From: Leptolyngbya sp. 'hensonii'
GTDB taxonomy: Bacteria > Cyanobacteriota > Cyanobacteriia > GCF-001939115
Reading direction: 5' to 3'
DNA: 64,000 nt
Assembly (NCBI RefSeq): GCF_001939115.1
Contig: NZ_MQTZ01000019.1
Location: forward strand, 124,001 to 188,000
The position numbers and the translations under genes are program-made. Positions 2,325 through 38,450 of this stretch are shown piece after piece. Below the pieces are notes generated by a model. The model was not told the DNA's origin. It saw nothing but the letters and a program-made list of their open reading frames with translations, and made no database searches. Numbering within the stretch: position 1 is the first letter of the stretch; each line of letters begins with the position of its first letter.

Positions 2325-3659
2325 GTGTCTAGTTCATCAGGTAATAATAATTCATCAGGTGGCAACTCCTCAGGCGGTGGTTCATCAGGCGGCGGTAATA
2401 ACCGGCGGATTACGACAGATGAGCAGCGACTGTATGACCATCTGCTTAGTTTGCTTGACGTAGAATCTCCTAGCGATCTGATTGAGCGCTTTAGAGCGCT
2501 ATTTATTGATGGTGTGGGTTATCCGGATCGTCAGACCCCCCTCATTCTGGACAAAATTACGGCAGCTAAGTTTTCGGACCAGGATTTTAAGTTTGTCCTG
2601 AACCGTTGCTGTCACATTTTAATTAACCGATGGCAACAGCGATCGCAGTTTCAAGGCGCTATTCCTGATTTGATTGCCCTATTTGAAACCGATCCCTGCC
2701 CCTCGGTCACTGAGTTTGCTCGGTATAAATCGATTCGCCGATTGCGTGAATTGGTGGCCCAGTTTACCCAAACTGAGCAGTACCACACCCTGCGCCGTCT
2801 AGCTCAGGTGATGGCTCAAGCCAGTGAAGCCAATGGCGGGGTGGATAATCGACCGTTGGGAACGCTGATTCGTCGCTATCCTTACCTCTACGAACATTGC
2901 CTTCTGAGTGATGATTGCGGCTACGAACATCAGCAAACCATTCGCCAGATCCAAACACAGGTGCAGCGCCAGTTTGAGGTTGATCTGTCCCAATATGTCA
3001 CCTACCGTGTCCGGCAATCTCAGATGGTGCGTTTAGCTCCCGCATCCAATGCGGTACGGAACCTGCGAGCGGTCAAGAATCCAACTCTGTTGAATGACAA
3101 TGAGTTGAGCTATGCCCTCAAGCACTTTGTGGGCAAGGTGGAAGGACCGATGACTTACAGGGATCAGGCCCAGCGGTTCCTGAGCCAAAATAGCTATACG
3201 CCTTCTTACAAGACGTTCAAGAACGATCTGTACGAGTACATTACCTCGACGGTGGACTCCAGCTACGCCCGACGGCAGTTTGGCAATCAGTTACACGACC
3301 AGTTGAAGAATATCCTGCCGGATAATAACTCTCAGAAAGTTAGTGATTTTCTCATTGTGCGAACCTGTAGCCAGTTGCTGAATTTTCTGGTTGTGGAAAG
3401 TTCTCAAAAGCCTCAGCACTTTGTCTTCATTGACTTGATTACGAATATTGGCCCAACCTGCACGGTGGGAATTGTCCTCAAGATTGTCTTGATTTGTCGC
3501 AAAGTTAAGCCTTACCTGGAGAAGCGATTCTCCATCCTGTTTAACCACTACGAGTCTTCAACTCGGGATGCAGTGAATTGGTTGATTAAAGCTCTGGAAA
3601 ACTTGAATGTAGCTTTAAGCACTAACTTTGGTAACGTTGATCTCTCATTTATCCGCTAA
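2325..3659 (+). CDS. Conserved-looking hypothetical protein with Gly/Ser/Asn-rich N-terminus
   Basis: I do not recognise the family. The 444-residue protein opens with a low-complexity tract of Ser, Gly and Asn (residues 2-26). A largely helical body rich in Arg, Gln and Leu follows (for example TTDEQRLYDHLLSLLDV and YARRQFGNQLHDQLKN). I see no signal peptide. A moderately hydrophobic patch near residues 375-395 (IGPTCTVGIVLKIVLICRK) could be buried or membrane-associated. The frame is closed upstream, so GTG at 2325 is the first available start. A strong terminator follows, so it is probably monocistronic despite preceding the GTPase gene. The low-complexity start suggests a flexible tether. 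Confidence 0.75.
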   Translation: MSSSSGNNNSSGGNSSGGGSSGGGNNRRITTDEQRLYDHLLSLLDVESPSDLIERFRALFIDGVGYPDRQTPLILDKITAAKFSDQDFKFVLNRCCHILINRWQQRSQFQGAIPDLIALFETDPCPSVTEFARYKSIRRLRELVAQFTQTEQYHTLRRLAQVMAQASEANGGVDNRPLGTLIRRYPYLYEHCLLSDDCGYEHQQTIRQIQTQVQRQFEVDLSQYVTYRVRQSQMVRLAPASNAVRNLRAVKNPTLLNDNELSYALKHFVGKVEGPMTYRDQAQRFLSQNSYTPSYKTFKNDLYEYITSTVDSSYARRQFGNQLHDQLKNILPDNNSQKVSDFLIVRTCSQLLNFLVVESSQKPQHFVFIDLITNIGPTCTVGIVLKIVLICRKVKPYLEKRFSILFNHYESSTRDAVNWLIKALENLNVALSTNFGNVDLSFIR

Positions 3660-3744: not shown

Positions 3745-3842
3745 ATCGGTTCACAGCCGAGAGATTTGTTAGCTTAGACTGGTCTGGGAGCGGCTTTCTG
3801 CTTCTGGATCCAAAGTTCGCTTGATGGTATGGGCATAGGGCA

Positions 3843-5366
3843 ATGAGCACAGAGGCTAATGATTTCAATTGGGATGGGGATCAGACTGTGCCTGATTCGT
3901 TGGGCTCTGAGGCAGAACTTCAGGAGATTGTGCAGGGATTTGAGCAGATTCAAGCCGATCTGAACTATAAACAGGCAAAGTACGCCTTGCGTGAACTGGT
4001 GTCCCATCTTGATCTGACTCTGCAAGAACGGGTGGGGCTAGAACCAGAGATTCAAGGACTGGAAACGATGCTGGACAAACTAGAGTCGGAGATCGTTCAC
4101 ATCGCAGTTTTTGGCATGGTGGGACGGGGTAAGTCTTCTCTCTTAAACGCTTTGTTGGGAGAGCAGGTGTTTGAGGTGGGGCCAACCCATGGTGTGACCC
4201 GGCAAATCCACAGTGCCCACTGGATTGTCCAGGAGGGGTTACCCCAGACTCCGGCAGTTGGGTCTGATGTTTTAAGGGTTGTTCTGCATGGTTTGCATGA
4301 CTCTCGCATTGAACTGATTGATACCCCCGGTATTGATGAAGTGGATGGGGAAAAGCGCGAGTTGCTGGCACGACAGGTGGCTCAACAGTCTGACCTGATC
4401 TTATTTGTAATTGCAGGGGATTTGACCCGTGTTGAATATGAGGCGCTCTCAACCCTGCGGGAAGCCAGCAAACCCATCCTGCTGGTTCTAAACAAGGTGG
4501 ATCAATATCCAGAAGCCGATCGACTGGCCATTTATCAGAAAATCCGGGATGAGCGAGTCCGGGAACTTCTGTCTCCAGACGAAATTGTCATGGTAGCGGC
4601 TTCGCCCCTGGTGGCCCAGGCTATCCGTCATCCAGATGGGCGAGTGTCGGCTCATCTGCGGCGAGGGCAGCCCCAGGTGGATGACCTGAAATTGAAGATT
4701 TTGGAGGTTCTGGACCGAGAAGGTAAATCTCTGGTGGCGCTGAACACGATGTTGTTTGCCAGCGATGTGAATGAACAGTTGGTGCAGCGAAAGTTGGTGA
4801 TTCGGGAGGATCGGGCTAATCAGGCGATCTGGAATGCCACGATTACTAAGGCGGTGGCGATCGCACTGAATCCCTTCACGGTGGTTGACCTGCTCGGTGC
4901 AGCGGTGATTGATATTGCCTTGATTCTGACCCTGTCTCGCCTTTATGGCATCGCGATGACGCAGCAGGGAGCTGTTGGATTGTTGCAGAAAATCGTGCTC
5001 AGTACGGGGGGAGTGGGAGCCACTGAGTTTTTGACCACATTGGGCCTCAGTTCTCTCAAAGGATTGCTGGGGGTTTCTGCTCCGATGACAGGGGGGGTGT
5101 CCTTGGGAGCCTATGTGTCGGTTGCTCTGGCTCAGGCTGGGGTGGCTGGGGTTTCCTCCTATGCGATCGGTCAGGTGACCAAGATTTACTTGGCTAATGG
5201 GGCCTCCTGGGGTAACGATGCGCCCAAAACAGTCGTCTCAAAGATTCTGGCTTCCCTGGATGAAGCCTCAATTCTGGCGCGGATTAAAGAGGAATTGAGG
5301 GCCAAGCTGGATTTGAAAGCCCGCGTCGGGGATTCTCCGGATGTAGATCCTGTAACAAAAGATTAG
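3843..5366 (+). CDS. Era/dynamin-like GTPase with DUF697-type C-terminal membrane region
   Basis: A GTP-binding protein of 507 residues. The P-loop is GMVGRGKSS (~residues 92-100). A switch-type Thr segment follows (GPTHGVTRQ), then G3 DTPGIDEVDG (~160) and G4 NKVD (~217). About 80 acidic/helical residues precede the G domain. The C-terminal third (~345-455) is hydrophobic and rich in Gly, Ala and Leu, as in DUF697/YcjF-type proteins, and probably inserts into or touches a membrane. A charged tail ends the protein. ATG at 3843 has AGGG seven bases upstream. Family members are linked to membrane remodelling or transport, but the specific role here is unknown. The upstream gene is separated by a terminator, so transcription is probably independent. 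Confidence 0.85.
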   Translation: MSTEANDFNWDGDQTVPDSLGSEAELQEIVQGFEQIQADLNYKQAKYALRELVSHLDLTLQERVGLEPEIQGLETMLDKLESEIVHIAVFGMVGRGKSSLLNALLGEQVFEVGPTHGVTRQIHSAHWIVQEGLPQTPAVGSDVLRVVLHGLHDSRIELIDTPGIDEVDGEKRELLARQVAQQSDLILFVIAGDLTRVEYEALSTLREASKPILLVLNKVDQYPEADRLAIYQKIRDERVRELLSPDEIVMVAASPLVAQAIRHPDGRVSAHLRRGQPQVDDLKLKILEVLDREGKSLVALNTMLFASDVNEQLVQRKLVIREDRANQAIWNATITKAVAIALNPFTVVDLLGAAVIDIALILTLSRLYGIAMTQQGAVGLLQKIVLSTGGVGATEFLTTLGLSSLKGLLGVSAPMTGGVSLGAYVSVALAQAGVAGVSSYAIGQVTKIYLANGASWGNDAPKTVVSKILASLDEASILARIKEELRAKLDLKARVGDSPDVDPVTKD

Positions 5367-5494
5367 ATTAAGTATTGTTAAATAGTGTAAAGAACTCTAC
5401 TGGAACCGCGACTGGCTGGAATTTCCCCCCCGGATATGATGAGCTGGGAGTCTTCCAGAGGGTTCTGATTGTTAATCTTTAGCGCAAGTGAATT

Positions 5495-5965
5495 ATGCTA
5501 ACTCAACTGGAGCGTTTAACTACTGAAGTTGATGGTCGGTACGCAACAGATACCGAACTGCAGTTTGTCATGGACTATATCCACTCCTACAATCTGCGGA
5601 TGAGTACCTACCTCAAGATCAAAGCTGCTGAAACAGATATGGTCCAGAAAGTGTACAACAAACTGCGGGGCTCATCTCCTGAACTTCTATTTAATGGTAC
5701 GGAAGATATCAGTGGGAAATGGAAGCGAGATACCATCCGAGTTTTGCGTTACTCGGTTGTGGCCATGCTGATCAATGACCCCGAGCGATTGCAGGAACGC
5801 TTTCTGTTCTGGTTTCAGACAATTATGCGAGCTTTTGGAGCCCAACGGAGCTGTAAAGTGACCTATGAAATGATGCAGGAGGTAGTGCAGCAATACCTGA
5901 CACCGGCTGAAGCGTCTCTATTCCTGCCCATCCTGGAGTTGAACCGGAAATTACTAGGAGGATGA
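5495..5965 (+). CDS. Phycobiliprotein-like globin-fold protein without a bilin-binding cysteine
   Basis: The 156 residues fit the allophycocyanin pattern along their length. There is an N-terminal E-x-DGRYATDTEL stretch (compare EADARYLSPGEL in ApcA), helical segments, then KRDTIRVLRYSVVAMLINDP. The last aligns with the chromophore helix ([21 protein letters not shown]). The cysteine that carries phycocyanobilin is missing there, replaced by a Lys/Arg-rich segment; the only Cys is in RSCKVTYEM. It is therefore probably a non-pigmented phycobilisome-superfamily protein, perhaps regulatory or a scaffold. The family call rests on visual pattern matching and is moderate. The reading frame continues past the TGA into the remnant of another gene. 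Confidence 0.6.
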   Translation: MLTQLERLTTEVDGRYATDTELQFVMDYIHSYNLRMSTYLKIKAAETDMVQKVYNKLRGSSPELLFNGTEDISGKWKRDTIRVLRYSVVAMLINDPERLQERFLFWFQTIMRAFGAQRSCKVTYEMMQEVVQQYLTPAEASLFLPILELNRKLLGG

Positions 5966-6196
5966 CCCCGTGTACGCAGTCATGCTTTGAATGATCTGCG
6001 CACAGTGATGGGGTGGATGCATACCTGGGCGATCCCGGAACAGGTTGCGATCGGCCAATCCTGGAGGGCATTTGACCTAGATGGGAATCTGCTGGACGAC
6101 CATCTTGCAAAACGACTGGATGCCTTCGATCATAGCCTGGTGGATAACAGACAGAAATTGGGGAGGGTTTCTCAATGGGAACGGGCCGCTGCATAA
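5966..6196 (+). pseudogene. C-terminal relic of an NAD(P)H-dependent FMN reductase
   Basis: About 76 codons follow directly and in the same frame after the TGA of the phycobiliprotein-like gene. They read like the C-terminus of the NADPH-dependent FMN reductase/azoreductase family: LRTVMGWMHTWAIPEQVAIG, then QSWRAFDLDGNLLDD, then a final helix. Members are normally about 180-200 residues, with an N-terminal flavodoxin-like G-S-x-R nucleotide-binding part that is absent here. The only start is a TTG at 5987, with no convincing ribosome binding site. I infer a deletion that removed the first ~60% of the gene. Expression as a 69-residue peptide cannot be excluded but is unlikely to be functional. 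Confidence 0.65.
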
Positions 6197-6279
6197 GCAG
6201 AGAAGAGGTTAAGCTAGATTAGATAAAGTTCCAATTGCTTCCTGGAAGGCTGAATCGACAGTCTATTTCGGGAGGCCTG

Positions 6280-8250
6280 ATGGCAGTCGTTTGTAAAAGG
6301 CAATCGGATATGAGAGGTCTCCCGAATCAGTCATCCCGGAAACCGTTGGCCCGTAGAAGCTCGACGATCGCGGGCTTTGTCATGGCCAGTTGGATCGTGT
6401 TGCAGGGGGTGACCCTGCCTGTACCTGCCAGAGCAGATGGGGCAGGCAACTCTATGTCCTACAGTGAGCTGTTGAAGAAGCTGGATGATAACCAAGTTGA
6501 GAGTATTGAGTTAGATCCAACTCGCAAAGTGGCTCGGGTTAAGTTAAAAGCGCCAGCCCAGAAGAAACCAGGGCAAGTTTTGGAAGTGCCCCTGCTGGAG
6601 GAAAATCCAGAGTTGATCGCGAAGGCGAGGGAAAAGGTTGATAGTGCTAACTTGCGGTTTGATATTCAACCCACGCCAGATAATAGTGCAGCTGCGAGTC
6701 TACTGGCTAATCTGTTACTGATTTTCCTCCTGATTGCAGGGTTGTTGATGATCCTGCGTCGATCGACCAGCGGTCCCGGGCAGGCGATGAGCTTTGGCAA
6801 ATCCCGAGCCCGCTTCCAGATGGAGGCCAAAACTGGCGTCATGTTTGAGGATGTGGCGGGGATCGAAGAAGCCAAGGAAGAACTGCAGGAAGTGGTGACG
6901 TTCCTGAAGAAGCCAGAGCGATTTACGGCTGTAGGAGCCAAAATTCCCAAGGGTGTGCTGCTAGTGGGGCCGCCAGGAACTGGGAAAACCCTGCTGGCCA
7001 AGGCGATCGCTGGAGAAGCGGGTGTCCCTTTCTTCAGTATCTCTGGCTCTGAGTTCGTCGAGATGTTTGTTGGCGTCGGGGCCTCCCGGGTGCGAGACCT
7101 GTTCCGCAAGGCCAAGGAGAATGCCCCCTGCATCATCTTCATTGATGAGATTGATGCGGTTGGACGGCAGCGGGGTGCTGGCATTGGGGGTGGCAACGAC
7201 GAGCGGGAACAGACCCTGAACCAGTTGTTGACCGAGATGGATGGGTTTGAGGGCAATACAGGCATCATCATCATTGCGGCCACCAACCGGCCTGATGTGC
7301 TGGATACAGCTCTGTTGCGCCCCGGTCGTTTCGATCGTCAGGTGATGGTGGATTTGCCGACCTTCAAGGGCCGACTGAAGATTCTGGAAGTCCATGCGCG
7401 CAATAAGAAACTGGCATCGGAAGTTTCTCTTGATGCTGTCGCTCGCCGCACGCCTGGATTTTCTGGTGCGGACCTAGCCAACCTGCTGAATGAGGCTGCG
7501 ATTCTAACCGCCCGTCGTCGGAAAGAGGCGATCACGCCCCTTGAGATTGATGATGCCCTCGATCGGCTGACCATTGGCCTGAAACTTGCCCCTCGGATGG
7601 ATGGCAAGGTGAAGTGGATGACGGCTTACCACGAAGTTGGACATGCTTTGGTGGCAACGATGCTCAAGCATGCAGACCCGGTGGATAAGGTGACGATTAT
7701 TCCCCGTTCGGGTGGGATTGAGGGATTCACCAGCTTTTTGCCGGATGAGGAGCGTGTGGATTCTGAGGGACTGCTCAGTCGCGCCCTTTTGCTCGATCGC
7801 ATCACGGTGGGTCTGGGTGGAAGAGCTACAGAAGCGGAAGTCTATGGCCAGAATGAGATTGATGCGGGGGCAACCGACGATATTAAGAAAGTGACCGATC
7901 TAGCCCGTAAAATGGTCACCCTGTATGGCATGTCCGATCTGGGTACCCTGGCATTAGAAAATCCCAATAGTGAAATCTTCCTGGGACGAGGATGGCTGGA
8001 TCGGGCTGCGGAGTATTCGGAAGAGATTGCCGCCCGGATTGACCGCCAGGTGAGAACCATTGTGGTGCACTGTTACGAAGATGCCTGTCGGATTATTCAG
8101 GACAATCGGGCTCTGGTGGATCGGCTGGTGGAGCTGTTGCTGGAGCAGGAAACGATCGACGGAGATGAGTTTCGCCGTATTGTGGCTGAATCGACCCAAC
8201 AAAAATTCCACACCGAAGTGAGTGAACACCCGTCAGCAGTAAGGGCCTGA
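6280..8250 (+). CDS. ftsH: ATP-dependent zinc metalloprotease FtsH
   Basis: A membrane-anchored AAA+ protease that extracts and degrades membrane proteins; in cyanobacteria FtsH paralogues handle photosystem II repair and essential turnover. The N-terminal hydrophobic segment is [17 protein letters not shown], followed by a lumen-side domain ([20 protein letters not shown]) and a second TM ([17 protein letters not shown]). Walker A GPPGTGKT is near residue 230 and Walker B is [11 protein letters not shown]. The second region of homology is [19 protein letters not shown]. The zinc site HEVGH is near 450. I chose ATG 6280 because GGGAGG lies just upstream. A TTG at 6235 would add 15 residues without support. 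The length (656) is typical. The paralogue type cannot be decided here. Confidence 0.95.
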
Positions 8251-8261
8251 AGAAACGGGGA

Positions 8262-8954
8262 CTAGCGAGTTGCAAACTGCTGGCCCGTTTGTGCTGCGCT
8301 GTACTGCTGTGCATACATGGCTCGCAGCACCAGAGCTGGATCAACCCACTGGCCGTTATACTTGAGCCCCCAGTGCAAATGGGGGCCTGTTGTCCGGCCT
8401 GTCATGCCCACCCGACCAATCCGGGCTCCAGCTGGGATCATTTGCCCTTCCCAGATCTGAAGTCCTCCTTCCCGATCGAGCATATATTTACCGCCATTCC
8501 CAGTGGCTACATAGCCCTTCATGTGGCAGTAGACATGCTGCCATTCACCCGATTGGATGATCACCGAAGTGCCGCAGGCAGTCTTATCAGAAACCTCAAT
8601 GACTCGTCCGGCCCACCAGTTGCGGACGTAGCTCCCTTCAGGGGCAGCCATATCCAGACCCCGATGAAACTCCTGACTGCGAGATCCATCGGGGGAGGAG
8701 CGATACCCATAGGGTGAAGTGTAAGCTTGAAAATTTTCTACCGGAAATGAACCAGCCTGCCAGCTTTGATTGGTTGCCTGGTTCATTTGGGCCAGAGGTT
8801 GACCCCGACCAGATTCTTCGGCGGTGACCGGCCCAGCGGGGACCCCGACTCCAATGACCCCTGCCGTGATGAGGCTACTGAGAATCAACCTCTGGCCCAT
8901 ACATGCCAGAGTGAACTTGCCCGCTCTGGGGCTCAGGGATTGCTGTTCAGACAC
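8262..8954 (-). CDS. Secreted M23 (LytM-type) peptidase domain protein
   Basis: A probable periplasmic peptidoglycan endopeptidase or regulator of amidases. A hydrophobic export segment (LILSSLITAGVIGVGVPAG) precedes the mature part. The M23 zinc/active-site signatures are HRGLDMAAPEGSYV, the HVYCHMKGY block and GPHLHWGLKYNGQWVDP, so the zinc-binding His and Asp residues look complete and the enzyme may be active. The start is uncertain: GTG 8954 has AGGAG ten bases upstream, while in-frame ATGs at 8972 and 9023 are alternatives. It converges on ftsH with 11 bases between the stop codons. Confidence 0.88.
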   Translation of the reverse strand: MSEQQSLSPRAGKFTLACMGQRLILSSLITAGVIGVGVPAGPVTAEESGRGQPLAQMNQATNQSWQAGSFPVENFQAYTSPYGYRSSPDGSRSQEFHRGLDMAAPEGSYVRNWWAGRVIEVSDKTACGTSVIIQSGEWQHVYCHMKGYVATGNGGKYMLDREGGLQIWEGQMIPAGARIGRVGMTGRTTGPHLHWGLKYNGQWVDPALVLRAMYAQQYSAAQTGQQFATR

Positions 8955-9171
8955 TGATTTTGCACTCCTCATACGATCGAGTCTTGCGAGAGCTAGCCAA
9001 GAATTTGGGTGGACACCCGTCATCTCAGACGCTGGAGAGATTTTATTTGCTCCCCAAGCAAGATGAGCTGAGACTAAATTCCTAAGTTTGACGATGATCT
9101 AGCTAAATTTCCCTCGACCTGTCAACCCTTTCAGTCTCTCTTTATACCGGAAAAATAGAGGATATCACATC

Positions 9172-9735
9172 ATGAACGCTGAAATCCGCATGATCCATCT
9201 TCCAGTAGACAATCAGGCTATGATGCAGCAGATTGCGGTGCTACTGGTAGACAGTTTTCGAGACAACTACCCGGAAGCCTGGCCAGACTTGCAGTCCGCT
9301 CTGGAGGAAGTGCGGGCTTCTCTTTTGCCTGGGCGGCTCAGTCGGGTTGCGGTGAACGATCGGGGCATGGTGCTAGGCTGGGCAGGGGGTATCCGCCAGT
9401 ATGATGGAAACGTTTGGGAATTACACCCCCTGATGGTTCATCCTCAATATCGGTATCGAGGAATTGGTAAAGCCCTGGTTGCGGATTTGAAAGAACAAGT
9501 TCGGCAGCGAGGGGCCTTAACCCTATGGGTGGGCACCGATGATGAAATGGGGATGACTACTTTATCGGGCGTTGATCTATACGGTGATGTGTTGGGGCAT
9601 ATCGCCCACATCAGAAATTTAAAAGGCCATCCCTATGCGTTTTACCAGAAGGTAGGATTTGTCATTGTAGGCGTGATGCCAGATGCTAATGGGCCTGGGA
9701 AACCAGATATCTACATGGCAATGCCCGTAGGTTAA
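9172..9735 (+). CDS. GNAT acetyltransferase resembling aminoglycoside 6'-N-acetyltransferases
   Basis: A 187-residue GNAT-fold acyl-CoA transferase. The acetyl-CoA pyrophosphate loop is HPQYRYRGIGKALV (R/Q-x-x-G-x-G/A type). Family-specific blocks follow: LTLWVGTDDEMGMTTLSGVD, then RNLKGHPYAFYQKVGFVIVG, then PDANGPGKPDIYMA. These resemble the AAC(6') group, in which a GTDDE...TSLSG block and an HPY-FY-K-GY block are shared. Whether it acetylates aminoglycosides or a natural amine is unknown, and genomic relatives of this kind are often not resistance genes. It stands alone between divergent and tandem neighbours, with no mobile-element signature nearby. Confidence 0.8.
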   Translation: MNAEIRMIHLPVDNQAMMQQIAVLLVDSFRDNYPEAWPDLQSALEEVRASLLPGRLSRVAVNDRGMVLGWAGGIRQYDGNVWELHPLMVHPQYRYRGIGKALVADLKEQVRQRGALTLWVGTDDEMGMTTLSGVDLYGDVLGHIAHIRNLKGHPYAFYQKVGFVIVGVMPDANGPGKPDIYMAMPVG

Positions 9736-9811
9736 TTTCTAACTCTTGACTAGCGTGGCTTCCAGGTAGGCTGCATATCCTGAAAAATGTGAGGGTGCCC
9801 CCATTTTAACT

Positions 9812-11422
9812 ATGGCAATATCCACTTCCCTAGCAGCACTCCCTGGGCAGGATAGTCTGTCTGGCCAGGGTAATTCTGCCGAACTGATCACGGCCCTGAT
9901 TATCCTGCTACTGGTTGCCACGGGGGTAGCCCTCCTGTCGCGCCGATTACGCATTCCCTATGTCACTGGGTTGGTTTTGGCAGGACTCGTAATTGCCGAT
10001 TTGCTTCCCCGCCGGATTGGGTTGGATTCTTCCCTGATCCTCAATCTGTTTCTGCCGATTCTGCTGTTTGAAGCCGCCATTAATACGGATGTCAGCCGAT
10101 TACGCAGTACGGTGAAACCAATTACCCTGCTGGCTGGCCCGGGCGTGGCGATCGCCGCTGGGGTCACAGCCACCGTCTTGAAATTTGGCCTGGGTTTGGG
10201 CTGGGTGCAGGCACTACTGACGGGGGTGATTCTGGCAATTACCGATACAGTCTCGGTGATTGCGGTGTTCAAAGAGGTGTCCGTGCCCTCCCGACTGACC
10301 ACGATCGTGGAAGGGGAAAGTCTGTTCAATGATGGCTTTGCCCTCGTGCTGTTTAGTCTGATTCTGCAGGGGCATACCACAGGCTCAGTCAGCCCTCAGG
10401 ATGCGGTGCAGCAATTAATTCTGGTCATTTGTGGGGGGGCCTTGCTGGGAGTTGTTACCGGCTACTTGAGTGCAGGAGTCCTGGTGCGATCGGCGGATCC
10501 CCTCGGTAGTATCTTGCTCACTGTTGCCGTGGCCCTGGGAACCTTTGAAGTCGGGGAACTGCTTCACGTTTCTGGAGTCGTTGCGGTGGTTACGGCTGGG
10601 CTTATGGTTGGGAGTCTGAGCCTTTCCCGAGGGGTTTCTGCCTCCAGCCGCATTACCCTCCTCAGCTTTTGGGAATATGCCGGTTTTGGGGTTAACACGC
10701 TCATTTTCCTGCTGATTGGGCTGGAAATTGACCTAACTTCCCTCTGGCGGAGCTTGCCCGCGATTCTCCTGGCTGTGCTGGCCTATCAAGTGGGACGGGT
10801 CTTAACCGTGTATCCCCTTTCCTTCAGTCTGGGTCGCTTCGATCGACCCATCCCCCTGCCCTGGCAGCATGTGCTCTTTCTGGGTAATATCAAGGGCTCG
10901 CTCTCCATGGCCCTGGCCCTGGGGATTCCGGCTACAGTGATGGGTCGAGGTGAGCTCGTGACCCTGGTATTTGGTTCGGTACTCCTCTCCCTGGTGTTTC
11001 AGGGGCTGAGTTTACCCTGGGCTGTGCGTCGATTGCAGGTGACATCCCAATCGGAATCCCGGCAACAAATTGAGGAGTTGCAGGCTCAATTGATTACGGC
11101 CAAGGCGGCCCAAGATGAGCTGGAAACCCTCTTGAAGAGTGGGATTTTACCTCGAACGGTCTACGAAGAACTGCGATCGACCTATCAAGTTCGGATTGCT
11201 GCAGCGGAAAAAACCTTGCGCGATCTGTTTAACCGTCGGGCCAGCGACATGACGCTGGCTGAGCGCAAGGGCACCCAATTGGATGCCATCCGCCGATATC
11301 TGCTGCTGGCTGAGAAGGGCGCTCTCAATGAGGCGCTGCGGAAGCGAATTCTGACGGAAGAGATCGTGCGGGAACGGGTGCAGACGATCGATAGCCAGTT
11401 GTTAAAACTGGAAGATGATTGA
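9812..11422 (+). CDS. Na+(K+)/H+ antiporter, CPA1 (NhaP-like) family
   Basis: An integral membrane cation/proton exchanger of 536 residues with about twelve hydrophobic segments between residues ~20 and 410. Family hallmarks include ITDTVSVIAVFKEV (transport-site Asp region) and the VEGESLFNDGFALVLFS motif carrying the N-D pair. After the last TM comes a ~120-residue cytoplasmic helical tail rich in Glu, Arg and Leu, which in NhaP relatives modulates activity. ATG 9812 begins the frame. A TrkA-N protein converges on it 30 bases away, which suits ion homeostasis, although the two genes are not co-transcribed. Confidence 0.9.
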   Translation: MAISTSLAALPGQDSLSGQGNSAELITALIILLLVATGVALLSRRLRIPYVTGLVLAGLVIADLLPRRIGLDSSLILNLFLPILLFEAAINTDVSRLRSTVKPITLLAGPGVAIAAGVTATVLKFGLGLGWVQALLTGVILAITDTVSVIAVFKEVSVPSRLTTIVEGESLFNDGFALVLFSLILQGHTTGSVSPQDAVQQLILVICGGALLGVVTGYLSAGVLVRSADPLGSILLTVAVALGTFEVGELLHVSGVVAVVTAGLMVGSLSLSRGVSASSRITLLSFWEYAGFGVNTLIFLLIGLEIDLTSLWRSLPAILLAVLAYQVGRVLTVYPLSFSLGRFDRPIPLPWQHVLFLGNIKGSLSMALALGIPATVMGRGELVTLVFGSVLLSLVFQGLSLPWAVRRLQVTSQSESRQQIEELQAQLITAKAAQDELETLLKSGILPRTVYEELRSTYQVRIAAAEKTLRDLFNRRASDMTLAERKGTQLDAIRRYLLLAEKGALNEALRKRILTEEIVRERVQTIDSQLLKLEDD

Positions 11423-33860: not shown

Positions 33861-34238
33861 TCACCCCCGATCGAGGATGGCCATCAGGTCATCGGATAGG
33901 GTGACTGGGTCAAAGGGCTTGGCAAATACGGCTGTAACACCCAGGTCAGCAAACCGACGTTGATCGGCAGCCTGCACTTTAGCGGTTAACAATACGACCG
34001 GGATATTTTGGGTCTGGGGATTGGCACGTAATTGCAGAAAAGCCGTAGGACCGTCAATATCTGGCATCATTACATCCAGAAGAATCAGATCTGGTTTCTC
34101 GGTTTCAGCCTTAGCAATGCCTTCATGCCCAGAGGCTGCGGTAATAACCTCCCAGTCTCCCATGATTTCCAGACTGGCCTGGGCGACAGTCCGGATATCT
34201 GCCTCATCATCCACGATCAGAATGCGCTTAAGAGTCAT
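33861..34238 (-). CDS. Single-domain response regulator (CheY-like)
   Basis: A 125-residue receiver. The acidic pair is in ILIVDDEADIRT, the phosphoacceptor Asp in LILLDVMMPDIDGPTAF, and the conserved Thr and Lys are in VVLLTAK and VFAKPFDP. No output domain is attached, so it probably passes signals by protein contact or phosphotransfer. I place the start at ATG 34238 (MTLKRILIVDDE), which overlaps the stop of the upstream sensor kinase gene by 11 bases. That points to translational coupling, with the kinase as cognate donor. Confidence 0.92.
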   Translation of the reverse strand: MTLKRILIVDDEADIRTVAQASLEIMGDWEVITAASGHEGIAKAETEKPDLILLDVMMPDIDGPTAFLQLRANPQTQNIPVVLLTAKVQAADQRRFADLGVTAVFAKPFDPVTLSDDLMAILDRG

Positions 34239-36084
34239 AACTGCCTGCCTCTGATAACACCTCATCGGGGCCGGAGAGGGGTAGGGTGAAGTAGAATGTA
34301 CTTCCTTTCCCTAGGACACTTTCGGCCCAAATTTTTCCACCATGCTGCTGGATAATGCTACGACAAATTGCCAGTCCTAGACCAGTCCCCCCTTTTTCCC
34401 GGGAATCAGAGGCATCTACCTGTTGGAAACGACCGAAAATCATTTCAATCTTATCGATCGGAATACCCCGTCCCTGATCCTGAATGGAAAAGAGCAGGGA
34501 GGAGCGGGGAGGAGCAGCAGGGAGGTGGTAAGCAGCGGAGGTCGGTGGGGAAAAATGGGCCGATGAGGTAGAGAGTAGCAGGTTATCCCGATCGGCTGTC
34601 TCGGGCTGACTGATGATGGTTGCCTTCACCCAGATCGTGCTTTGGGGCGGAGAGAATTTAATCGCATTGCTTAAGAGATTGGTCAGGGTCTGGATAATGC
34701 GATCGCTATCTGCCCATAGAGGAACCGATAGGGGTGTGACCGACAAAGTAATCCCAGCTTTATCGACCAGGGGATGCATGGTGGCTGCTGCCTGCTGCAT
34801 TAAATCTGCGGCGTCACAGAACCGCTTTTCCATCGTGATTCGGCCAGATTCAATCCGCTCTAGGTCCAAAATATCGTTGACCAGGCGAACCAGGCGATCG
34901 GCATTGGCAACAGCAATCTCCAGCAGATGTTGTCCTCGCTCTGCCAGGGTGCCTAGCTTGCCGGTTGCGATCAACCCCAGGGCTCCTCGAATCGAGGTCA
35001 GGGGAGTCCGCAGTTCGTGACTGACCACTGAGATAAATTCGTCTTTCATCCGATCGATGGATTGCCGCTCGGTGATATCTCGAAAGATAACGACGGTGCC
35101 CACAATTTCATCCTGGAATGCCTCTGATTCGGAGGTTTGTACCAGGGGGGAGAGGGAGGAGGCGTCCCCGACTTCGCCGACTGGATTAATATAGTGGCGT
35201 TCTCGAATGGGCGTACTGATATATTCCACCGGGAAACAGGAACCATCCTGCCGCCAGAACACTTCATTACTGCGGTGCTGGATATTTCCTTCCCGGAGAG
35301 AGGTGTAAATAGGGGATTCCTCCAGGGGATAGGGTGTACCATCCGGTTTATTGTAATAAATCGTGCCGTGCAGGGGTTGGAACAGCAACTCTCCCATCTG
35401 ATAACCCAACATTCGGCTGGCTGCCGGATTCATAAAGGTAATCCGGCCCTGCAGATCAACACCACAAATCCCTTCCCCGGCAGAGTTGAGAATCAGTTCG
35501 TTTTGATGGCTGAGCCGTTCAAAAGCGACTTCAATCTGCTTGCGATCGGTGATGTCGCGCACAATCACCAGAACTTCATCTTGCCCGCTGACGACCACGC
35601 GACCTTCCTGGTAGTAAACCCGGCCATTAATCTGAACCTGGTACTCGTAAACCTGACTCTTACCTGTTTTGAGGGCTTGTTCGATAAAGTGCAGGCGCTG
35701 ATTGGCCAGTTTGGTGGGCATCACCTGGTAGATATTCTTACCGACCTCTGTTTCTGGCCAGGCCACAGTGAAGTCTTTGCCAGGGATAAAATCCAGATAA
35801 CCACCGCTACGGCTCATCCGGATCATCAAATCGGGCATCGCATTGAGTAAGGCCCGATGGGCAGCAGCCTGTTGTTGGGTTGCCAACAGCAGCAGGAGCA
35901 CCAGAACGACCAAGCAAACAACCACCAGGCCCATTCCCAGGAAAATCCCCGCCACGAGCGCCTGACTCATTGCCTTCTGAACCAGAAAAGTGTACCAGAG
36001 CAATAAAACCGCCATGACACCCCCGGTGCCAATCAACATGGGTAGCCACTGCTTCCATTGGCTTTGAACAGGCTCTGGGGTCAT
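34228..36084 (-). CDS. PAS-domain sensor histidine kinase
   Basis: A 618-residue membrane kinase. Two adjacent N-terminal TM helices (~12-32 and ~42-66) have almost no loop between them, so sensing is probably cytosolic or in the membrane. Two PAS domains follow (~75-185 and ~190-340). The second contains a ~25-residue acidic/Ser insert. Then come the H-box SHELRTPLTSIRGAL and the HATPase boxes (N-box LTNLLSNAIKFS, G1 IQDQGRGIP, G2 GGTGLGLAICRSI). A ~30-residue Ser/Pro insert lies before the G1 box. It overlaps the upstream regulator by four bases (ATGA) and the downstream receiver, so all three form one operon. Confidence 0.93.
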   Translation of the reverse strand: MTPEPVQSQWKQWLPMLIGTGGVMAVLLLWYTFLVQKAMSQALVAGIFLGMGLVVVCLVVLVLLLLLATQQQAAAHRALLNAMPDLMIRMSRSGGYLDFIPGKDFTVAWPETEVGKNIYQVMPTKLANQRLHFIEQALKTGKSQVYEYQVQINGRVYYQEGRVVVSGQDEVLVIVRDITDRKQIEVAFERLSHQNELILNSAGEGICGVDLQGRITFMNPAASRMLGYQMGELLFQPLHGTIYYNKPDGTPYPLEESPIYTSLREGNIQHRSNEVFWRQDGSCFPVEYISTPIRERHYINPVGEVGDASSLSPLVQTSESEAFQDEIVGTVVIFRDITERQSIDRMKDEFISVVSHELRTPLTSIRGALGLIATGKLGTLAERGQHLLEIAVANADRLVRLVNDILDLERIESGRITMEKRFCDAADLMQQAAATMHPLVDKAGITLSVTPLSVPLWADSDRIIQTLTNLLSNAIKFSPPQSTIWVKATIISQPETADRDNLLLSTSSAHFSPPTSAAYHLPAAPPRSSLLFSIQDQGRGIPIDKIEMIFGRFQQVDASDSREKGGTGLGLAICRSIIQQHGGKIWAESVLGKGSTFYFTLPLSGPDEVLSEAGSYDS

Positions 36085-38450
36085 ATGGGTTCCCCGACAG
36101 GATAAATGCGCTCTCCACCATCTGCCTTAGCTCGGGTCAGGGCTGCCATGGCCGATCGATAGAGATCCGGGATCTCTTGACCGTGGTTGGGATATTCGCT
36201 AATGCCAGCACTGAACGTCACCTGAAAAGGAGTCTTAGGACCAGAAAAAGCTTGTCGTTTCAGCAACCTCAGGACCTCATTCAGCCGTTCCATCCCTTCT
36301 GGGGCGCTCATCCCATACATTCCAATCACAAAAGCGGCCCCGCCCCAGCGGGCAATAATGTCCTCACTGCGGAAAGTTTGTTTCAGCAGTTTACCTAACC
36401 AGTGCAAGACCCGATCGCCCACCGCGTGGGTATGTTGATCGTTAAGCTGGTTAAAGTGGTCCAAATCCAGCACTGCCAACGTCCAGGGATGGTGGTAGCG
36501 ATCGGACCAGATGCAAAAGCGCTGCAATTCCTGCATGGATTTTTGCTGGTTGGCAGCGCCAGTCAGGGGATCGATTTCGGCCAGATTGCGGATCAGGCGG
36601 GTTCGCTCCAGCCGATTGTGCATCCGTGTTAACAGTTCTGGACCGGTGATCGGCTTACTGATAAAGTCATCGGCTCCAGCCGCAAAGACCCGCCGAATGG
36701 TTTCGGCATCATTGCGGGCAGTTAAAAACAGAATCGGGAGCCAGTTCAACTGAGCATGGTTCCGAATGGTCTGACAGAGCTCAATGCCATCGCGCTGAGG
36801 CATTTCCACATCCAGGACTACCAATTCTGGATTCACGGCCTCCAGAATGGCATCGAATTGCAGGGGATCGGCCAGGGTGGCGACCTGAAATCCCCAGGGT
36901 TCCAGCAGTTGCTGGAGTGTGGTCAGGATAATGGGGTCATCATCCACCACCAGAATCCGAGTCGCGCTGGACCGAGTTTTCTGGTGGACTTGTCGGAGGA
37001 GATCCAGGGTTAAATTCAAGTCGAGGGCGTGGCTGAGCAGGGGGCGTCCTCCCAGACGAGCGATTTCAACCCGATCGACCGGCATGGTTTCGATTGTCAG
37101 GGTGAGTGTAGGGACAGGTGGGGCACAGGCGGTCAATTCACCCACAAAGGGGAGGGCGGCCTCACCCATCTCGGTTTGAGTCAGATCCACCAGGGCCAAG
37201 TCGGGGCGTTCCCCTCGGATCAGATCCCTGGCTACAGAAACGCTCGAAGCTGCCGTGATCCGGAAATCCGCTGCCGGAATTTGGGTCAAGTTTTGTATCA
37301 GTTGGCGATCGGTGGTGACGACCAGCAGATTGGCCTGTTTGGAGGTGGTGGGTTGGGCCCAGGCAGACGGGTCGATCTCCGACTCTCCGGGTGGACTATC
37401 CAACTGGTGGCGCAGGGTGGCGATCTGTTGCCCCAGTTTCGTGGCCTGATCGGGTCCAGGAGATGACTCGGCTTCCAGGATTTCTTCCAGGGATCGAGCC
37501 AGTTTGGTGGCCCCATGGAAACCAAACATACCAGCGGAGCCAGCCAGCTTATGGGCTTCTCGGGCGGCTTGGTACCGCAGTTCATCCGTAAGTTGGCCCT
37601 GGTGCAATTTTTCGATCGCCTGTTCCAGAACGGTGACCCGCTCTAATAGGCTGGGCTTGAAGACCAGCCAGGCTTGAGTGACAGCAACCTGAGTTTTGGC
37701 CTGCCGGGTCGTCTGGGTGGCCTCATCCTTGGGGCTTCCAGGGGCTTTTTCGACAGTGGGGGCTGGTTTTTGGAGGGAATCGAGTTCTCGTAACCGATAT
37801 CCCAGCCCGTAAACCGTTTCAATCAGGTCTGCGGCACCTACGGCCCGCAGTTTCTGACGTAACCCTTTGATGTGGGCTTTAACGGTGTCTTCTCCGGGTG
37901 AGTCGTCAAAAGACCAGAGATGATCCAGAATGGCACTGCGGCTGAACACCCGACGATTGTTGCGCAGGAACAACTCCAGCAAAGAATATTCTTTCGGGCT
38001 CAAGGGTAGAGATTGGGACCCATAGGTCACCTGGCAAGTAGTGGGGTCGAGACAGAGGTCTCCCCATTGCAGAATAGGCGATGAGGGGACTTCTCCCCGC
38101 CGCAGCAGGGCTCGAATTCGGGCGGCTAGTTCGGCAATGTTAAAAGGCTTGACCACATAATCATCGGCCCCGGCATCGAGGCCCATAATTTTGTCGTTGC
38201 TGGTGTCTCTGGCTGTGAGGAGCAGGATAGGCATATGGTAGTTTTTAGCCCGCAACTTGCGACAGAGACTCAGGCCATCCAGCTTGGGTAGCCCCACATC
38301 CATCAGGATTAGGTCATAGTTGACAGATTCTGCTAAATCCAGACCTTCCTGGCCATCTCTGGCCACATCAACAGCATACCGCTGCTCAGTCAAGGCGTCT
38401 GTAAGCACTCCCGCGATATTCTGGTCATCTTCCACCAGTAGAATCCGCAT
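36081..38450 (-). CDS. Multi-domain regulator: REC-wHTH-Hpt-pseudoREC-REC-degenerate GGDEF
   Basis: A 789-residue protein combining parts normally spread over several genes. Residues 1-118 form a receiver with D8/D9 and phosphoacceptor D51. Residues ~123-226 form an OmpR/PhoB winged helix (YSLLELFLRNNRRVFSRSAI). Residues ~255-350 hold an Hpt domain with EAHKLAGSAGMFGF. Residues ~370-490 look like a receiver that lost its acidic pocket. Residues ~495-617 form an intact receiver (VVDDDP, then LVVLDVEMPQRDG). The final part is a GGDEF-fold domain whose signature reads GGAAF, so diguanylate cyclase activity is unlikely. It presumably binds DNA and relays phosphate internally. ATGA overlap links it to the kinase gene. 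Confidence 0.92.
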   Translation of the reverse strand: MRILLVEDDQNIAGVLTDALTEQRYAVDVARDGQEGLDLAESVNYDLILMDVGLPKLDGLSLCRKLRAKNYHMPILLLTARDTSNDKIMGLDAGADDYVVKPFNIAELAARIRALLRRGEVPSSPILQWGDLCLDPTTCQVTYGSQSLPLSPKEYSLLELFLRNNRRVFSRSAILDHLWSFDDSPGEDTVKAHIKGLRQKLRAVGAADLIETVYGLGYRLRELDSLQKPAPTVEKAPGSPKDEATQTTRQAKTQVAVTQAWLVFKPSLLERVTVLEQAIEKLHQGQLTDELRYQAAREAHKLAGSAGMFGFHGATKLARSLEEILEAESSPGPDQATKLGQQIATLRHQLDSPPGESEIDPSAWAQPTTSKQANLLVVTTDRQLIQNLTQIPAADFRITAASSVSVARDLIRGERPDLALVDLTQTEMGEAALPFVGELTACAPPVPTLTLTIETMPVDRVEIARLGGRPLLSHALDLNLTLDLLRQVHQKTRSSATRILVVDDDPIILTTLQQLLEPWGFQVATLADPLQFDAILEAVNPELVVLDVEMPQRDGIELCQTIRNHAQLNWLPILFLTARNDAETIRRVFAAGADDFISKPITGPELLTRMHNRLERTRLIRNLAEIDPLTGAANQQKSMQELQRFCIWSDRYHHPWTLAVLDLDHFNQLNDQHTHAVGDRVLHWLGKLLKQTFRSEDIIARWGGAAFVIGMYGMSAPEGMERLNEVLRLLKRQAFSGPKTPFQVTFSAGISEYPNHGQEIPDLYRSAMAALTRAKADGGERIYPVGEPI

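Follow-up and report, generated by a model that had tools for sequence, protein, structure and literature searches.

What kind of signalling device is a 789-residue protein that carries, in a single chain, an N-terminal receiver, a DNA-binding winged helix, an Hpt domain, two further receiver folds and a GGDEF domain with a ruined active site? The gene for this regulator is found, together with genes for a sensor histidine kinase and a CheY-like receiver, in a stretch of 64,000 nucleotides that was analysed as a whole and is here termed the window (Table 1). We consider it quite probable that the three genes encode a phosphorelay of the type known from RcaC, to which a pseudo-cyclase GGDEF tail has been added.

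Table 1. Positions of the three genes and their encoded domains in the window, and of the genes of an rca-type locus (L153) on another contig of the same genome.
Feature	Position	Strand	Details
RcaC-type regulator with C-terminal GGDEF, 789 aa	36081..38450	minus	ORF; ATG at 38450, stop TGA 36081-36083
Regulator REC1, intact receiver	38112..38444	minus	D8, D9, D51, T79, K101; Pfam Response_reg
Regulator OmpR/PhoB-type winged helix	37791..38015	minus	Trans_reg_C, 80 bits, residues 146-220
Regulator Hpt	37410..37667	minus	H300 in HKLAGSAG; residues 262-347; 41 bits, cut-off 24.6
Regulator middle receiver-like fold	36981..37337	minus	Acidic pair and Lys lost; D422, T452 kept
Regulator REC3, intact receiver	36615..36959	minus	D547, T577, K599; Pfam Response_reg
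Regulator GGDEF domain	36111..36581	minus	Pfam, 102 bits, residues 624-780
GGDEF A-site, GGAAF	36330-36344	minus	Residues 703-707
GGDEF I-site, RSED	36360-36371	minus	Residues 694-697
Sensor histidine kinase, 618 aa	34228..36084	minus	PAS, PAS, HisKA (SHELRTPL, H356), HATPase
Single-domain CheY-like receiver	33861..34238 (125 aa) or 33861..34265 (134 aa)	minus	Intact phosphorylation site
rca-type locus L153	contig 17, G000:C17:128538-144448		
L153 kinase	8333-10636		
L153 CheY	7920-8336		
L153 RcaC-like protein	5989-7926		
L153 pcyA	5014-5757		NCBIfam PcyA
L153 cpcB	3803-4321		NCBIfam phycocyanin beta
L153 cpcA	3167-3655		NCBIfam phycocyanin alpha

A Pfam search of the regulator returns Response_reg in three stretches, Trans_reg_C, Hpt and GGDEF, each family above its cut-off. 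Chance or artefactual domain calls were rejected, as curated cut-offs are exceeded by all domains except the middle receiver. The latter, taken alone, falls short of the curated Response_reg threshold (E=0.0032), and its pocket is damaged, the acidic pair being replaced by TT (residues 379-380) and the lysine by H474. In an alignment-based AlphaFold model (mean pLDDT 79.8) residues 373-494 nevertheless adopt the five-fold beta-alpha pattern of a receiver, and the Hpt shows its four-helix pattern. Two receiver folds thus follow the Hpt, REC3 being clear and the middle one weak by sequence. The original prediction, made from the letters alone, had described these six domains within 789 residues, and the Pfam search, including its Hpt and winged-helix matches, a residue check and the model for the middle fold bear out all of them, down to the intact receiver with D51, the HKLAGSAG motif, the receiver without its acidic pocket, the second intact receiver and the GGAAF signature.

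The kinase gene starts within the regulator gene, the overlap with its stop codon being 4 nt (ATGA), and the kinase gene in turn shares 38 nt with the CheY gene if the latter is read from its first ATG (34265), or 11 nt if it starts at the better-placed ATG, 34238. Both overlaps had been predicted correctly; the interval proposed for the system, 34228-38450, spans regulator and kinase but leaves most of the CheY gene just outside. Two hydrophobic stretches at the N-terminus of the kinase are likely membrane segments. Between the N and G1 boxes of its ATP-binding domain, the kinase harbours a low-complexity insert of some 35-40 residues, encoded by a CT-rich stretch (34470-34610); these 141 bases are unique within the genome.

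The closest described counterpart of the regulator is found in chromatic acclimation, where RcaC switches light-harvesting pigments with light colour; RcaC also contains an Hpt domain. Published accounts describe RcaC as a winged-helix protein with three CheY-like receivers that acts in the pathway after the kinase RcaE and RcaF, a CheY-like protein (PMC4390838, PMC8256508). Up to about residue 615 the regulator follows the RcaC plan, with the phosphorylatable Asp in the N-terminal receiver, an OmpR-type winged helix, the Hpt histidine and two later receiver folds, the first of which is degenerate, and it is likewise co-encoded with a kinase and a single CheY protein. Unlike RcaC, it adds a GGDEF domain; moreover, its kinase is a membrane PAS protein rather than one of the GAF/phytochrome type, and the genes are ordered regulator-kinase-CheY instead of kinase-CheY-regulator.

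As an anchor for comparison with RcaC we used the rca-type locus L153 of the same genome, which encodes, in the order kinase-CheY-RcaC, a GAF/PAS kinase, a CheY protein and a 645-aa RcaC-like protein that contains an Hpt. The RcaC-like protein is 41% identical to the regulator over residues 1-619. The L-box consensus, which we take to be TTGCACA-N4-TTGCACA, occurs in this locus exactly at 4679-4696, upstream of the phycocyanin genes, and with one mismatch at 5898-5915, upstream of pcyA. Given a complete rca-type locus with an exact and a one-mismatch L-box, the organism itself probably tunes phycocyanin to light colour. The locus that combines the rcaE-type kinase, pcyA, the cpc genes and L-boxes is not the one in the window, and in the window a GGDEF domain follows the last receiver. 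Since the 64-kb window is devoid of L-boxes, the regulator is a paralogue of RcaC, probably with other targets, rather than RcaC itself. A direct-repeat binding site was also sought upstream of the regulator gene, and none was found there.

The combination of DNA-binding and relay parts had been thought unusual, a view that the comparison across cyanobacteria does not bear out. Relatives of the regulator are encoded at E<=1e-100 in 171 of the 291 cyanobacterial genomes sampled, and further copies exist in its own genome; the layout, RcaC plus GGDEF, is therefore a widespread cyanobacterial one. The GGDEF-bearing form accounts for at least 85 proteins in at least 68 of the 291 genomes, the order regulator-kinase-CheY recurs, and with so many members found by the class-wide search a unique architecture was rejected. 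In the literature searched, where subscription journals are mostly uncovered, we found no description of the six-domain form. The copies in the same genome include, apart from the GGDEF-less protein of L153, a 511-aa copy (L004) and a second full six-domain protein (L037, G000:C59:33434-44764), which is 49% identical, has an intact GGEEF motif and is accompanied by its own kinase and CheY. The L037 protein represents a natural live counterpart of the GGAAF regulator.

About 120 loci of relatives were retrieved for comparison. The residues needed for a relay are almost invariant in the proteins with a GGDEF domain (REC1 Asp in 83 of 88, Hpt His in 84 of 88, REC3 Asp in 86 of 88) and in those without (28/28, 28/28 and 27/28, respectively). 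In the 103 loci for which 3.5 kb or more of downstream sequence was available, the next co-oriented gene after the regulator encodes a kinase in 46, a CheY gene lies within three genes downstream in 54, and the commonest spacing between regulator and kinase is the 4-nt overlap. In four loci (L122, L124, L125 and L129) a PAS kinase is fused to the RcaC-like part in a single chain of 1024-1755 aa, a DNA-binding hybrid kinase adjoined by a separate CheY gene. Operon and fusions together speak for a single pathway made up of kinase, CheY and regulator. The RcaC build is thus not confined to chromatic acclimation but characterizes a large family of cyanobacterial regulators, many of them with a PleD-like tail.

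The resemblance to PleD concerns the C-terminal half of the regulator, which has the order REC-REC-GGDEF. Accordingly, the best fold matches in the PDB are PleD chains, which align over about 450 columns, roughly the whole length of PleD, although the angles between the domains are not reproduced. In PleD phosphorylation occurs on the first receiver and the second serves as an adaptor, whereas in the regulator the first of the pair is degenerate, the second is intact and the cyclase site is dead; the score against the NCBIfam PleD model, 253 bits, lies well below the cut-off of 474. A destroyed A-site next to an intact RxxD motif within a two-component protein is also known from SgmT and PopA. 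SgmT is a hybrid kinase, while the domain here is part of a transcription factor. PopA is a GGDEF protein with two receivers that lacks a DNA-binding domain. Finally, RfpB, which works with RfpA and RfpC in far-red photoacclimation, likewise binds DNA, has a receiver at either end and is encoded together with a kinase and one CheY protein, yet it has been described with two receivers and without GGDEF.

The predicted death of the GGDEF domain is upheld by its residues. In PleD numbering, E370 and E371 are replaced by Ala, K332 by Asn and R446 by Gly, while D327, N335, D344, K442 and the I-site pair R359 and D362 are kept. An active diguanylate cyclase combines GG[DE]EF with the metal and phosphate ligands, a set that is incomplete here, and a sequence check found no working GGDEF motif elsewhere in the domain. 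SgmT, which carries GGGVF, is reported to be devoid of catalysis because the corresponding A-site residues are missing (PMC3509222), and for this reason diguanylate cyclase activity of the regulator appears very unlikely. Variants of the first A-site glycine can stay active (PMC3974145); in nearly all family members scored as dead, it is the acidic third residue that is missing. The GGDEF domain of the regulator is less decayed than that of most dead members, as it retains D327, N335, D344, K442 and RSED, and the label of a passive tail may therefore be too strong. The domain probably plays an accessory role, either structural or ligand-binding.

One such ligand could be c-di-GMP. A dead GGDEF domain may act as a receptor that binds the dinucleotide through the RxxD I-site and thereby tunes oligomerisation, localisation or DNA binding, as has been proposed for SgmT and PopA. 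The regulator shows the expected pattern, an RSED motif (residues 694-697) at I-site spacing ahead of the dead GGAAF; SgmT, with GGGVF and RHPD, has the same pattern and binds c-di-GMP through it (PMC3509222). A dead A-site combined with an intact RxxD also occurs in a supported clade of five members (L035, L036, L040, L075 and L103) and in the nearby L034, and the genome yields 37 GGDEF matches, so that c-di-GMP signalling is very probably present in the organism. Across the family, however, RxxD is kept in only 15 of 53 dead members compared with 23 of 32 live ones (Fisher p=1e-4, relatedness ignored), and this poorer retention speaks against, and weakens the case for, a family-wide receptor role. 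The secondary I-site Arg is Glu in the regulator, yet it is Arg in just 4 of the 32 live members. On balance, a receptor function is possible but somewhat unlikely. More specifically, and a little less likely still, the dead domain might, in a subset including this regulator, have come to feed a c-di-GMP signal into a phosphorelay regulator that binds DNA; if so, a single chain would combine second messenger and kinase relay at a promoter.

For the phosphorelay itself, an internal relay through the Hpt of the regulator is the likeliest mechanism, and the direction of phosphate flow can be proposed by analogy with RcaE-RcaF-RcaC. The membrane PAS kinase would autophosphorylate and pass phosphate to CheY and/or REC3, from where it would reach H300 of the Hpt and finally D51 of REC1, whose phosphorylation would set how the winged helix binds DNA. 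The middle receiver would serve as a non-phosphorylated structural or dimerisation module. Alternatively, the kinase might be an ordinary two-component partner of REC1, with Hpt, CheY and REC3 acting in cross-talk or as a phosphate sink and without any internal relay. Kinases adjoining OmpR regulators usually phosphorylate them directly, a habit which direct transfer to REC1 would fit, and the N-terminal half of the regulator is indeed of the standard OmpR type, scoring above the RppA cut-off in NCBIfam. Against this stand the near-invariance of the Hpt His and the REC3 Asp throughout the family and the co-encoded CheY in about half of the informative loci, which fit a multi-step relay as in RcaE-RcaF-RcaC, and we regard the simpler scheme as unlikely. 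Still, phosphate could pass straight from the kinase to REC1, and the Hpt would then be left for another kinase.

Within such an internal relay the GGDEF tail would be a pseudo-cyclase that keeps the fold and the guanine contacts but could no longer synthesize c-di-GMP, and in the RcaC-type family it would be a dispensable accessory that was inactivated or dropped many times. Of the 85 GGDEF-bearing members compared, the A-site looks live in 32 and is dead in 53. On the best trees, built without the GGDEF domain and containing many weak branches, at least 11 changes are needed to explain the live and dead labels and 13 to explain presence or absence of the domain; the strongly supported branches alone force about 6 changes each. 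Two apparent losses, L094 and L120, were rejected as broken genes or assembly errors with cyclase sequence beyond the stop, and the losses were recounted.

Identity within the GGDEF domain is 0.32 in dead and 0.49 in live members, while the other domains are similarly or slightly more conserved in the dead ones. The third residue of the A-site defines the two classes and was thus left out of the argument on the pattern of loss. Among the 53 dead members, the metal and phosphate ligands are seldom kept (D327 in 7, K442 in 9), as opposed to the guanine contacts N335 (43), D344 (39) or both (36). We read the tail as a pseudo-enzyme under relaxed yet not absent constraint, because most metal and phosphate ligands are lost while guanine contacts and fold residues are mostly kept. 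The ligand might instead be GTP or a different guanine nucleotide, recognized by the base-contact residues, and not c-di-GMP bound at the I-site. The retention of these residues in the regulator and its dead relatives would accord with this reading, which is nevertheless doubtful: neighbouring fold residues are equally conserved, so that the retention may be structural, and a domain that has lost metal and phosphate ligands should bind GTP less well.

The repeated, independent death or loss of the tail, with guanine contacts mostly retained, constitutes a natural experiment on the use of a cyclase domain to a transcription factor after catalysis has ceased. In the 75 loci that have both a GGDEF domain and enough flanking sequence, a kinase is the next gene in 27 of 47 with a dead domain and in 5 of 28 with a live one (Fisher p=8e-4, kinship ignored).
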